64,000 nt of DNA. It comes from Streptomycetaceae bacterium. GTDB taxonomy: Bacteria > Actinomycetota > Actinomycetes > Nanopelagicales > Nanopelagicaceae. Where the stretch lies: NCBI GenBank assembly GCA_027483765.1, contig JAIXTW010000010.1:62001-126000 (forward strand), in the 5' to 3' direction. The notes beneath the pieces are model-generated. The model saw nothing but the letters and a program-made list of their open reading frames with translations. It was not told the DNA's origin and searched no databases. The translations under genes were made by a program, and so were the position numbers. Below are positions 54,233-58,199 of the stretch, piece after piece. Every line of letters begins with the position of its first letter. Position 1 is the first letter of the stretch.

Positions 54233-55111
54233 ATGGATGCGTTGCTCCAAGAGTCTTACCTCGAGTGCAAGCGACTTAACTCGCTACATGGCAAGACGTA
54301 TTACTTAGCAACGCTGCTACTACCAAAAAGCAAACGTCCCTACGTGCACGCTCTCTATGGCTTCGCCCGATATGCAGATGAAATTGTTGATGATCTTGCA
54401 TCCACCCTTTCACCGCAAGAAAAAGCTGATGCCCTGCGCAGTTGGAGTACGGGAGTGCTCAATGACTTGCAGGCAGGTCGCAGCACAGATCACATCGGCA
54501 GAGCGCTGGTAGATACAGTAAACAAGTTTGCTATCCCCCACCAACATTTTGTGGATTTCTTGCACTCAATGGAGATGGATCTGACGGTAACCGAGTACCA
54601 AAGATATGAAGATTTACTTGAATATGTCTACGGTTCGGCCGCGGTCATTGGTCTGCAAATGGTTCCCATTCTGGGTTACTCCGATGAGCGCGCATTTGAA
54701 GCAGCACAGAAATTAGGTATTGCTTTCCAATTAGCAAACTTTATTCGCGACGTAGGCGAAGATCTCGACCGGGGCCGCGTCTACTTACCACTGGAAGAAC
54801 TTGCGCAGTTCGGAGTTGATAGAGCGATGTTAGAGCGTAGGGTGCTCACGCCAGAGATCATCGCGGCTCTTAAGTTTCAAATTGCTCGAGTGCGCCAATT
54901 GCAAGCTGAATCCAATATCGGAATCGGATATCTCGATAAAGAATCTCGGCCGTGTATCTCGGCGGCGAGTGAGCTCTACTGTGGCATCGTTGACGAAGTA
55001 GAAGCCATTGGTTATGACATTTTTAATAAGCGGGCCAAGACTTCAACAGCGCGTCGCGCCAAAGTTGCCGGGCTGGCTTATCTACAGGCAATTTCAGCCC
55101 GTATTCGCTAG
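54233..55111 (+). CDS. crtB: phytoene synthase
   Basis: Condenses two GGPP to phytoene. The 292-residue enzyme shows KTYYLATLLLPKSKRPYVHALYGFARYADEIVDDL (first Asp-rich motif near residue 43), EYVYGSAAVIGLQM and LANFIRDVGEDLDRGRVYLP (second motif near residue 165). Its ATG comes directly after the crtI stop. It is the last gene of the crtE-crtI-crtB unit; a TPP riboswitch follows within 10 bp. Confidence 0.95.
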   Translation: MDALLQESYLECKRLNSLHGKTYYLATLLLPKSKRPYVHALYGFARYADEIVDDLASTLSPQEKADALRSWSTGVLNDLQAGRSTDHIGRALVDTVNKFAIPHQHFVDFLHSMEMDLTVTEYQRYEDLLEYVYGSAAVIGLQMVPILGYSDERAFEAAQKLGIAFQLANFIRDVGEDLDRGRVYLPLEELAQFGVDRAMLERRVLTPEIIAALKFQIARVRQLQAESNIGIGYLDKESRPCISAASELYCGIVDEVEAIGYDIFNKRAKTSTARRAKVAGLAYLQAISARIR

Positions 55112-55118
55112 TATTTTC

Positions 55119-55206
55119 ACACACGGGAGCCACGGTGGCTGAGAGGACTTCATAGAAGTCGACCGTCTGACTGGTCCGGTAATGCGGATCTAGAAATGGC
55201 AGGTGT
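55119..55206 (+). ncRNA. TPP riboswitch (THI element)
   Basis: Hallmarks in order: CGGGAGCC, the P2 arms GCCAC and GTGGC, the conserved GGCTGAGAGG, the P3 hairpin GACTTC-ATA-GAAGTC, ACCGTCTGA, and the P4/P5 part CTGGTCCGGTAATGCGGATC. ACAC at 55121-55124 and GTGT at 55203-55206 can close the structure. The pattern matches the thiamine pyrophosphate aptamer. It ends at the AGG ribosome-binding site of the next gene, so thiamine pyrophosphate probably blocks translation of the transporter. Confidence 0.92.
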
Positions 55207-55209
55207 ATT

Positions 55210-55800
55210 TTGTTAACAACCTTTTTCACAGCGTGGGGCTATGACGTTTCCTATCTCGAATTCATCGCTTCGATAGTCTCATTTATCGGTGTGGCACTCG
55301 GAATTACTGGGAAGAGAATTACCTGGCCTTGGTGGGCTGCTAGTAGCGTCCTGTATGGAATCTTCTTTCTGCAATACAAGCTCTATGCCAGCGCCGCACT
55401 ACAAATAATTTTTATTGCAGCCGCCGTTATTGGTTGGTATGGATGGGGGCCAACTGGCGCAAAGCCAGGGCCAGTCAAGAATTCACACCGTATCTACATT
55501 CTGGCTGCGATTTTTATCGCCACACTGGCACTTGGCCCACTACTGAAATATTTGGGAGCCGCCTCGACCTACGTTGATGCAGTTCTATTCTTTGGAAGCT
55601 TCGCGGCGCAACTACTTATGGTTTATCAGAAGTATGAAACTTGGGTGCTCTGGCTCGTTGTCGATATCGGATATGTCGCACTCTATGCTTCACAGGGATT
55701 ACTCTTTACGACGTTGCTGTATGTACTTTTCACAGCCATGGCCGCGCTGGGATGGAGCAGATGGTATGGAGCTCACCGCCGCGCTACTAGATCTCTGTAA
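55210..55800 (+). CDS. pnuT: PnuC-family thiamine transporter (PnuT type)
   Basis: A 196-residue protein with seven or eight hydrophobic segments and PnuC family motifs: AWGYDVSYLEFIASIVSFIGVALGITGKRITWPWW near the N terminus, LQIIFIAAAVIGWYGW and TWVLWLVVDIGYVALYASQGLLFT. PnuC carries nicotinamide riboside, but members behind TPP riboswitches carry thiamine (PnuT). TTG at 55210 is used as start, 7 nt after AGG. The next gene overlaps its 3' end. Confidence 0.9.
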   Translation: MLTTFFTAWGYDVSYLEFIASIVSFIGVALGITGKRITWPWWAASSVLYGIFFLQYKLYASAALQIIFIAAAVIGWYGWGPTGAKPGPVKNSHRIYILAAIFIATLALGPLLKYLGAASTYVDAVLFFGSFAAQLLMVYQKYETWVLWLVVDIGYVALYASQGLLFTTLLYVLFTAMAALGWSRWYGAHRRATRSL

Positions 55801-56302
55801 GGGTGTCGTCCAGCCCATCATTGCAATCGATGGGCCGGCAGGAGCTGGCAAGACGACGCTGGCGCAAAACTTGGCGCTAGCGTGCGCTTCGACGCTCTCA
55901 ACCACCGTTATACACATGGATGATCTTTACGATGGTTGGGAAAACGCCCTCGATGAAGAGCTTTCAACAGTTCTTGCAAATATCGTCAGTCAACATAAGA
56001 GTTCGAAGAGTATTTCTTTTTCTCGCTATGACTGGCACGAGCAAAAATTCGCGCAACCGCATGAACTCCCCCACTCTGACTTATTGATTCTCGAGGGCGT
56101 GGGTAGCGGACAGAGCGCCATTCGTTCGTCGCTATCTGCCTTGATCTGGATAGATATCAGCGCCCCGGAAGGGTTATCGAGAGTAATTAATCGCGATGGT
56201 GATTCCATTCGGAATCAGATGGAGAAGTGGCTCACACTGCAAGAGCAACACTTTCGAGTTGAGGGCACTCAGAACGCATCGGATTTCGTACTCACTACAT
56301 AG
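55766..56302 (+). CDS. P-loop kinase of the uridine kinase-like group, possible thiamine trapping enzyme
   Basis: A 178-residue protein with a P-loop (IAIDGPAGAGKTTLAQNL near residues 16-33), a substrate-binding VIHMDDLYDGW near residue 53, a Walker-B-like LLILEGVGSGQS near residue 107 and a lid-like RDGDSIRNQMEKW. It resembles uridine kinase and related small-molecule kinases. ATG at 55766, with GGAGC 8 nt upstream, lies in the last 35 bp of pnuT, so the gene is under the same TPP control. PnuT is a facilitator and needs phosphorylation to trap thiamine; this kinase may do it. Substrate untested. Confidence 0.72.
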   Translation: MELTAALLDLCKGVVQPIIAIDGPAGAGKTTLAQNLALACASTLSTTVIHMDDLYDGWENALDEELSTVLANIVSQHKSSKSISFSRYDWHEQKFAQPHELPHSDLLILEGVGSGQSAIRSSLSALIWIDISAPEGLSRVINRDGDSIRNQMEKWLTLQEQHFRVEGTQNASDFVLTT

Positions 56303-56305
56303 AAT
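56300..56305 (+). promoter_or_regulatory. probable -10 element of the pknB gene
   Basis: TAGAAT, seven bases (TTGATAT), then ATG at 56313. The hexamer includes the TAG stop codon of the kinase gene upstream. No Shine-Dalgarno is visible, which fits a leaderless message. Confidence 0.55.
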
Positions 56306-56312
56306 TTGATAT

Positions 56313-58199
56313 ATGTCTGACCTGACCGGCGAACTCATTGATGGGCGTTACCAACTCATCCGCCAGATGGCCAGCGGCGGTATGGCAAGTATTTATGAGG
56401 CGGTAGATACCCGCCTGGATCGCAAAGTTGCTGTGAAAATCATGCACTCGCATCTTGCCCAAGATGAACAATTTGTCGAACGGTTTATCCGGGAAGCAAA
56501 AGCGGCAGCAGCACTTTCGCACCCAAATATCGTTGCAGTGCAGGACCAGGGCTGGAATCAGAATGGAACACCAGCGGTCTTCTTGGTGATGGAACTTATT
56601 GAGGGGCACACACTTCGTGAATATCTCAATGAGCGCGGAAATCTATCAATCGCTGACGGAATCACTTTCTTAGCACCCGTTCTCAGCGCTCTCGCCGCTG
56701 CGCACAAAATCGGGATTGTGCACCGAGATATCAAGCCCGAAAATATTCTGATCTCTAAAGAAGGACGGATCAAGATTGCCGATTTCGGTCTCGCAAAGGG
56801 TCCACTCTTGGGCTCCACGATGACTGCAGAATCAAGTGTTGTGCTCGGAAGCGTGTCATATCTATCACCAGAGCAGGTTCAACGAGGTGTTGCAGATGCA
56901 CGCAGTGATGTCTATTCGGTAGGAATCACAGCTTTTGAAATGTTTACTGGAAGCAAGCCGTTTGAAGGTGACGCGCCAATACAAGTGGCCTACATGCATG
57001 TAAATAGCCGCGTGCCAAGAATTAGCACCTTAGTGAAAAGCGTTCCACCGGCTTTAGATGATTTGATCTACCGCGCAACGAGTGCAAATCCCGATGAGCG
57101 GCCACGAGATGCGGCGCTATTTTACGAAGAACTCAACGCGCTTAATCCCAAGAAGAATCAGCTCAGCCTAGAACTAGATATTCCAATCGCGCCAATGCGT
57201 CCCAAGAAAGAGGCGAGGTCGCTACGCAAAAGAGTGAAGGAGTTAACAGCTGCCATTCCAGTTCCTAAGGCGCAAGAGACAACCGCTCAGATAGAAAAAC
57301 GAAAGAAGATAAGCAAGCGAGTAAAGCGAAACCGATTTATCGCCCTTGGTTTAGCTATCGCCCTTGGCGTATTCGGTTGGTATGCACTTATTGGACCCGG
57401 ATCGCGCGTTGTTGTTCCTTCAACTGTCGGAGCTACCCAAGAAGAGGTGCAAGCAGCGCTCGGCCCACTAGGACTTACTTTTTCAATCGCTGAAAATCGA
57501 TTTAGTGAAGATATTGCGCAAGGGCGCGTCATTGCATCATCACCGCAAGCTGGTGGGCGGATAGATCAAGGTGGAACCGTCAATCTTGTTATCTCAAAAG
57601 GCCCGGAGCGTTATGTAATTCCGATGTTAGCTGGACTGACGCCACAAGCTGCGGCTAATCTCATTGGTAAATTGCCATTGGTAAAGCAAGCCAATATTGA
57701 AGAATTTAGTTCAACGGTTCCTAAGGGATACGTTATTGATTCAACGCCGACATCTGGGGAAAAGGTAAAGCGTGGCACGGCCATCACGATTCGAGTCTCT
57801 AAAGGAATTGAGCAGATTGCACTCGCATCCTATGTTGGTAAGAGTTCTGACCAAGCGCTCAATGAATTATCGGAAGCTGGATTTGCAGTCTCGTCAGAGT
57901 TTGGATTTAGCGAGATTCGACTTGCCGGCGAGGTTATTTCTCAAAAACCGGTGGGCGGACAGAACGTGAATAAGGGTTCAGTGATTGAACTGCTGGTCTC
58001 TAAGGGATCTGAGTTTGCCTATATCCCAAATGTTTTCTCAATTGACGAAGCAAAAGCTGTACGAACCTTAAAAGACCTTGGCGTGAAAGTTGTCGTCAAG
58101 AAAATTGGTAAGAAAGTGGTAAAGAAAGTCACTGCCATCTCGCCTAAGGTCGGCACTAAGGTCAAACGTGGCAGTACCGTGACCATCACAGTAGGGTGA
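56313..58199 (+). CDS. pknB: PASTA-domain Ser/Thr protein kinase (PknB family)
   Basis: Membrane kinase that senses muropeptides or lipid II and controls cell-wall growth. The kinase domain (residues about 11-275) has the ATP lysine K42 in VAVKIM, the catalytic HRDIKPEN (D139) and DFG (D157); a juxtamembrane linker runs to about residue 340. One helix (RFIALGLAIALGVFGWYALIG) is followed by four PASTA domains. All catalytic residues are present, so it is an active kinase. It stands alone, without the usual pbpA-rodA neighbours in the window. Confidence 0.93.
   Translation: MSDLTGELIDGRYQLIRQMASGGMASIYEAVDTRLDRKVAVKIMHSHLAQDEQFVERFIREAKAAAALSHPNIVAVQDQGWNQNGTPAVFLVMELIEGHTLREYLNERGNLSIADGITFLAPVLSALAAAHKIGIVHRDIKPENILISKEGRIKIADFGLAKGPLLGSTMTAESSVVLGSVSYLSPEQVQRGVADARSDVYSVGITAFEMFTGSKPFEGDAPIQVAYMHVNSRVPRISTLVKSVPPALDDLIYRATSANPDERPRDAALFYEELNALNPKKNQLSLELDIPIAPMRPKKEARSLRKRVKELTAAIPVPKAQETTAQIEKRKKISKRVKRNRFIALGLAIALGVFGWYALIGPGSRVVVPSTVGATQEEVQAALGPLGLTFSIAENRFSEDIAQGRVIASSPQAGGRIDQGGTVNLVISKGPERYVIPMLAGLTPQAAANLIGKLPLVKQANIEEFSSTVPKGYVIDSTPTSGEKVKRGTAITIRVSKGIEQIALASYVGKSSDQALNELSEAGFAVSSEFGFSEIRLAGEVISQKPVGGQNVNKGSVIELLVSKGSEFAYIPNVFSIDEAKAVRTLKDLGVKVVVKKIGKKVVKKVTAISPKVGTKVKRGSTVTITVG

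Follow-up and report, generated by a model that had tools for sequence, protein, structure and literature searches.

The thiamine locus and its flanking genes

The locus lies in the window, by which we mean the whole 64 000-nucleotide stretch of DNA analysed (G000:C7:62001-126000), taken from a genome of 1.29 Mb that is 96% complete. A TPP riboswitch, a gene for a PnuT-like carrier and a gene for a P-loop kinase follow one another on the same strand (Table 1), between crtB and pknB, which are the usual flanks of the kinase locus in the order. The earlier note on this DNA had described the riboswitch, carrier and kinase as one unit with the start of the kinase inside pnuT, and this description was borne out, as the parts overlap end to end. 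The kinase ORF as mechanically called starts at 55574; the ATG given in Table 1 is the plausible start, judging by close relatives, which align from residue 1.

Table 1. Features of the riboswitch-pnuT-kinase locus and its flanks (positions within the window)
Feature	Position	Strand	Remarks
Phytoene synthase (SQS_PSY, crtB), upstream flank, outside the module	54233-55111	+	
TPP riboswitch (RF00059)	55113-55212	+	38.0 bits; 3' end overlaps pnuT start; weak P1 helix
pnuT-like carrier, PF04973, 196 aa, TTG start	55210-55800	+	132.4 bits; PDB 4qtn (PnuC) match, E 1.5e-4
pnuT/kinase reading-frame overlap, 35 bases	55766-55800	+	
P-loop kinase (proposed thiamine kinase) of 178 aa, beginning with an ATG within pnuT	55766-56302	+	PF00485, 29.5 bits
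Ser/Thr protein kinase with PASTA domains (pknB), downstream flank, outside the module	56313-58199	+	

The riboswitch matches RF00059 over its full length (model positions 1-105 of 105, E 2.1e-6 in a small search) and is the sole match to that model at E ≤0.001 in the 1.29 Mb genome. A scan of the whole window at the Rfam gathering score listed nothing, because the score of the element lies below the gathering score of 54.3 bits. A model built from 21 riboswitches gave the window riboswitch 84 bits, a score that is not independent, since this riboswitch is among the 21. In the alignment of the 21, 13 of the 20 predicted pairs have at least one sequence in which both sides are altered and the pairing is kept, and the columns of the core motifs CTGAGA, ACC and TAATGC are conserved. 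P1 is irregular, with three of its five pairs non-standard, and the consensus structure is without P1. Across the order, the TPP riboswitches in front of pnuT score between 26 and 46 bits, all below the Rfam gathering score, with P1 poor or absent, and the purine-rich stretch before the start codon comes directly after P4.

Several features bear on how the riboswitch might act. It starts 2 bases past the crtB stop codon and ends at the start of pnuT, and scans of 54900-56350 for promoters and terminators found nothing; translational control within a longer transcript would therefore be likelier than transcription termination. In 20 riboswitches compared by script, extended pairing of the P1 type to the ribosome binding site was not consistent. 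The 35-base overlap suggests that translation of the carrier and the kinase is coupled.

The kinase has a predicted PRK/uridine kinase fold

PF00485, the PRK/uridine kinase family, is matched by the kinase, and the best NCBIfam match is NF005115 (PRK06547, ‘hypothetical protein’), with 103.6 bits over residues 8-175, under the cut-off of 173. NF005115 is a family without an assigned function. The AlphaFold model of the kinase is confident (pLDDT 95, pTM 0.90) and adopts the PRK/uridine kinase fold. It most resembles the small-metabolite kinases uridine-cytidine kinase, pantothenate kinase and phosphoribulokinase, as well as PDB 1rz3, with Z scores from 19.2 to about 17 (1uej, Z 19.2; 5xlv, Z 18.7; 1rz3, Z 18.2) and a best fit of rmsd 2.4 over 163 residues. 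Identity in the top uridine-cytidine kinase, pantothenate kinase and 1rz3 rows is 16-22%.

PF04263 (TPK) and PF01636 (APH), the latter the family of ThiK, are both absent from the best 25 of 40 Pfam matches of the kinase, those at E ≤0.039, and the TPK and ThiK folds are absent among the 50 VIA-align rows listed, VIA-align covering Foldseek candidates only. ThiK has the choline-kinase/aminoglycoside-phosphotransferase fold, unrelated to that of the PF00485-like window kinase. The earlier note had likened the protein to uridine kinase and had set it apart from ThiN, TPK and ThiK; as to ThiK, this holds for the kinase protein itself by Pfam.

Residue conservation marks out the family within the common fold. 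Invariant in 23 class-wide sequences are the P-loop residues D22, G23, G26, G28 and K29, together with D52, Y55, G57, W58, W90, E110, G111, G113, W128, R139, R143 and W155. The same positions are invariant in 25 sequences of the order, except W155 (18 of 25). The window kinase shares D52, Y55, the GW pair (57-58) and W90 with its class-wide relatives, and this pattern, D52-x-x-Y55-x-G57-W58 plus W90, is conserved in its family against the background of a fold held in common with uridine-cytidine kinase, pantothenate kinase and 1rz3. The aspartate of the DSFY motif is the catalytic base in uridine kinase, and from its position in the modelled fold D52 is likely to have the same role. We conjecture that three conserved aromatic residues, Y55, W58 and W90, could hold the thiamine rings.

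The riboswitch-pnuT-kinase order is conserved across the order

Our sample of the order comprised 121 genomes, 100 of them with completeness of 90% or more and contamination of 5% or less. Profiles found the kinase in 118 genomes and PF04973 in 115, and a search with fast filters found the TPP riboswitch in 96. Going by the matches listed, 103 genomes have a carrier match that ends no more than 113 bases upstream of a same-strand kinase match; 80 of these 103 pairs had a riboswitch in front at first count. Reading of the locus placed pnuT in front of the kinase in seven more genomes (G028, G037, G045, G069, G074, G102 and G117; the G074 contig ends inside the kinase), bringing those with pnuT directly upstream to 110 of the 118 that carry the kinase. 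The apparent lack of a riboswitch in 25 of the 121 genomes was due to the filter: with a laxer Rfam threshold or with the 21-riboswitch model, 24 of them proved to carry one in front of the pair, and the 25th (G085) has its pair at a contig end.

Taken together, 109 of the 110 pairs stand behind a TPP riboswitch; in G085, the 110th, 53 bases of contig remain ahead of the carrier match. The weakest riboswitch counted scores 26.4 bits (G023, E 0.54). All 17 single-contig genomes carry the pnuT-kinase pair, and five further loci, L140-L144 (Actinomycetota, Actinobacteria, Actinomycetales or uncultured actinobacterium), have the same gene order. This shared order, the size of the genome and the riboswitch-pnuC arrangement described in acI strains (PMC5301498) suggest that the window comes from an acI/Nanopelagicales actinobacterium. 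The recurrence of one order in 110 of 118 kinase-bearing genomes argues that the arrangement is not due to chance.

Many genomes of the order have a second PF04973 carrier, and such carriers served as a control. The 20 loci of the order with the best PF04973 scores (L022-L041), none of which adjoins the kinase, carry an FMN riboswitch in 15 cases and a TPP riboswitch in none, so the kinase goes with the TPP-controlled paralogue and not with the PF04973 family as such. The FMN-controlled carriers are presumably the riboflavin carrier PnuX, which has been proposed for one acI strain (PMC5301498). The window carrier, with its PF04973 domain and its TPP riboswitch, would be PnuT, a putative thiamine transporter.

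A gap in the thiamine pathway

Most genomes of the order cannot produce TMP de novo. TPK_catalytic (PF04263) was found in none of the 121 genomes, nor at E 0.001 in the window genome. ThiC occurs in two (G007 and G043), and full-length ThiE in five (G007, G043, G035, G059 and G110) of the 17 that match; G017, over the cut-off only with neighbouring pieces, was left out. The window genome has no match above the counted thresholds for TPK, ThiC, ThiE or ThiG, its ThiG match being weak (29.9 bits, positions 166-225).

ThiL is the enzyme that is kept. It is matched in 119 of the 121 genomes (all except G091 and G102) and lies over the cut-off in 108, and about ten genomes, nearly all fragmented assemblies, have a fragment, a weak match or none. 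ThiL of the window genome (G000:C3:213935-214741) scores 183.6 bits, just under the cut-off of 184.15, and all 17 single-contig genomes reach at least 181 bits. A second weak match in many genomes (about 45-54 bits), which we ignored, would be PurM-like. ThiL phosphorylates TMP, which cells with ThiL and without ThiE must therefore obtain in some other way. The direct way would be a thiamine kinase, with uptake of TMP as the alternative.

The earlier note had proposed looking for the riboswitch-pnuT-kinase order in genomes that lack ThiN/TPK, and had held that a normal TPK in genomes with the pair, with a kinase that does not co-occur with TPP riboswitches, would refute a thiamine role. The order was found, in 109 pairs among genomes devoid of TPK, and the kinase co-occurs with TPP riboswitches. 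The note's further suggestion, that this pair would be enough for an auxotroph, was not supported, given the retention of ThiL.

At the level of the class, TPK_catalytic matches 94 of 246 genomes; these were rejected, as every match listed falls within positions 6-45 of 113 and many of the ORFs are about 400 aa long. We take these partial matches to be SteA-like proteins, probably, and such proteins could be misannotated as TPK (L134-L137).

Transporters are exchanged and the kinase is kept

The genomes that depart from the usual order are the best evidence for a role in thiamine metabolism. In eight genomes the kinase has no pnuT, and it still lies after crtB or a prenyl synthase gene and before pknB (flank genes were named by eye; pknB was seen in seven, the contig of G080 ending there). 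In seven of the eight (G007, G058, G075, G080, G088, G108 and G113) a TPP riboswitch stands elsewhere in the genome directly before the gene for ThiB, and exactly these seven of the 121 genomes have a ThiB over the cut-off, the measure by which we counted (43 match). A permease gene follows that of ThiB in five stretches (L055, L057, L058, L060 and L062), and the two permeases checked, in L055 and L058, are ThiP-like, below the ThiP cut-offs. In G043, the eighth genome, a riboswitch leads a YkoE-type ECF component (PF09819) and another leads thiC.

A maximum-likelihood tree of 121 kinases places these eight among the pnuT-linked kinases. The pnuT-less label needs five changes on the tree, at least four of them forced by well-supported branches, which argues that the thiamine transporter was switched several times, counted without direction, with the kinase kept.

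These exchanges bear on whether the kinase might act on nicotinamide riboside or another nucleoside, delivered by a PnuC-type carrier. Such a substrate would suit the relatives of the protein, since NRK1 (profile E 1.5e-6, Z 12.8, weaker than the uridine and pantothenate kinases) stands among its profile and fold matches along with uridine kinases, and it would suit the carrier, as the name of PF04973 refers to NMN transport and the carrier goes by PnuC in NCBIfam. However, a nucleoside role leaves the TPP riboswitch before 109 of 110 pairs without a reason, and it is hard to square with the replacement of the carrier by ThiB or YkoE with the kinase kept; the udk model (TIGR00235) gives the kinase 27 bits against a cut-off of 220.3. 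We regard this reading as very improbable.

Three genomes of the sample, G035, G059 and G110, all of genus g8, lack the kinase. A full ThiG, at about 345 bits, occurs in these three alone, and they have ThiE; 120 of the 121 genomes match ThiG, the others at no more than 35.3 bits per match on part of the profile, and only the three were counted. Where thiazole phosphate is made in the cell and coupled to HMP, TMP arises directly and a thiamine kinase is not needed. The coincidence of kinase absence with ThiG is perhaps a single event, since it is confined to one genus, and G007 and G043, which have both ThiE and the kinase, form a counter-case. In g8, a riboswitch-thiO-thiS-thiG block lies between crtB and pknB, in the slot of the kinase; it was seen whole in G110 (L130) and before pknB in G059 (L131) and G035 (L066). 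A second riboswitch of G035 leads a CytX-like permease, below the cut-off of the CytX model.

Could the same carriers bring in a precursor or breakdown product of thiamine, hydroxymethylpyrimidine or thiazole, for the kinase to phosphorylate? A published table that gives thiamine or HMP as the substrate of YkoEDC (PMC6593275, Table 1) would allow it. Yet full ThiE is missing in 116 of the 121 genomes and ThiC in 119, so the precursors could not be joined in most of them, and in G007 the kinase is present along with ThiM, ThiE and ThiD. A precursor kinase is in our judgement improbable.

Kinase relatives outside the order

Within the class, 214 of 246 genomes have an NF005115 match, weak in many of them and over the cut-off in 19. 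Forty kinase loci from other families of the class were examined over some 11 kb apiece, or less at contig ends, which took in at most about 5 kb on each flank. Five of the 11 loci in family f36, which from its place in the tree would be Microbacteriaceae, read TPP riboswitch-YkoE-YkoD-EcfT-kinase (L220 and L227-L230), and one locus of another family (L248) reads TPP riboswitch-PnuT-kinase. The other 34 had no TPP riboswitch in the stretch examined, and the wider kinase family is therefore not tied to thiamine by context. A similar picture came from 16 named loci (L148-L163), 15 of them without a TPP riboswitch; the exception is Aurantimicrobium (L152), with riboswitch-YkoE-YkoD-EcfT-kinase, the YkoE recognized by eye and the kinase over the NF005115 cut-off (184.6 bits against 173). 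In a contig titled ‘Candidatus Nanopelagicales bacterium’ (L146) riboswitch, pnuT and kinase stand in that order at a different site on the chromosome, and neither L145 nor L147 has a TPP riboswitch. The YkoEDC-linked and PnuT-linked kinases are far apart in the tree.

In L145 and L146, two related contigs, the kinase lies beside a gene for a short-chain dehydrogenase and a 2-oxoglutarate dehydrogenase E1-like gene, the latter recognized by eye. 2-Oxoglutarate dehydrogenase E1 is a TPP enzyme.

Loci at other chromosomal sites also speak to the neighbourhood of the kinase. It remains beside crtB or a prenyl synthase gene even in genomes without pnuT, as it would if it belonged to the adjoining carotenoid cluster and had nothing to do with thiamine. 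Against this, g8 retains the flanks and has thiO-thiS-thiG in place of the kinase, and L146, L248 and the YkoEDC operons place the kinase by a thiamine transporter at other sites. Membership of the carotenoid cluster is so improbable that we give it next to no weight.

A candidate thiamine kinase in an uptake and trapping module

Our comparison makes it probable, on sequence and genome context, that the P-loop enzyme is a thiamine kinase unrelated to ThiK that makes TMP for ThiL. We infer the substrate, the product and the ligand response of the module as follows. When TPP is scarce, the riboswitch would leave the start of pnuT open, and PnuT would admit thiamine. The P-loop kinase would convert thiamine and ATP to thiamine monophosphate, trapping the thiamine in the cell, and ThiL, encoded elsewhere, would phosphorylate the monophosphate further, to TPP. 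Being a facilitator, PnuT would gain nothing without trapping, which phosphorylation by the kinase would supply.

The earlier note had seen here an uptake and trapping module with an unrecognized thiamine (pyro)phosphokinase. Genome comparison supports the module, and of the two activities the pyrophosphokinase is the less likely. A thiamine pyrophosphokinase of a new fold would convert thiamine directly to TPP, with ThiL kept for some other reason. All of the evidence from thiamine context would fit this equally, and Bacteroides pair PnuT with tnr3, which is termed a thiamine pyrophosphorylase (PMC5613172). The presence of ThiL over the cut-off in 108 of 121 small genomes, with full ThiE in five, so that ThiL would be without evident use in the rest, argues instead for a kinase that stops at TMP, and the nearest folds are one-phosphate kinases, with no TPK among the rows listed, itself a weak test. 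We therefore consider the pyrophosphokinase unlikely.

The proposed thiamine kinase can be set beside several known systems. Thiamine salvage in E. coli passes through ThiK, with ThiL turning TMP into TPP, and once thiK is deleted a TPP-riboswitch reporter is not repressed by thiamine any more (PMC4112796); the window kinase would carry out the reaction of ThiK. The pnuT-tnr3 operons of Bacteroidetes likewise combine a TPP riboswitch, PnuT and a thiamine-phosphorylating enzyme; there the enzyme is tnr3 (PMC5613172), whereas here it has the P-loop PRK/uridine kinase fold in genomes without TPK. A further parallel is found in thiamine-auxotrophic acI strains, which were described in 2017 as lacking nearly all enzymes of thiamine de novo synthesis and salvage, and in which a THI element lies upstream of a pnuC-like gene, proposed as PnuT (PMC5301498), an arrangement shared with the window locus. 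In the main text of that paper the word ‘kinase’ appears twice, for thymidine and riboflavin kinase, and no kinase is given after pnuT. Within the open-licence PMC literature we found no paper that names this kinase in thiamine metabolism, and PMC7527133 and PMC12381374, as far as their text was available, have nothing on it. The riboswitch and PnuT are thus already published for the lineage, and the proposed thiamine kinase would be the new part, which makes the module a transporter plus trapping kinase with a kinase of another family.

Imported thiamine would have no route to TPP in a cell that lacked both a thiamine kinase and TPK, and the kinase would fill this gap with a testable gene. 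The gap concerns freshwater actinobacteria, some of the most abundant bacteria of lakes, and our reading would give a role to a family so far labelled ‘hypothetical protein’. If true, it would correct models of vitamin exchange that score thiamine salvage by ThiK, ThiM and ThiN (PMC6593275). A broader proposal is that all NF005115/PRK06547 proteins of actinomycetes serve as the thiamine kinase of actinobacteria, in which case the activity arose a second time, from a P-loop protein, beside ThiK, and was kept as PnuT, ThiBPQ and YkoEDC were exchanged; to this we give even chances.

The PHROGs families matched by the locus were a generic kinase and a PnuC-like one. No copy of the kinase was found in viral contigs by a search reaching close relatives only, nor on plasmids at near identity. 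Among phages, one record, an unannotated contig from human faeces (MT835957.1:4678-5205, H1), encodes a relative with 27.6% identity over 96% of the length of the kinase.
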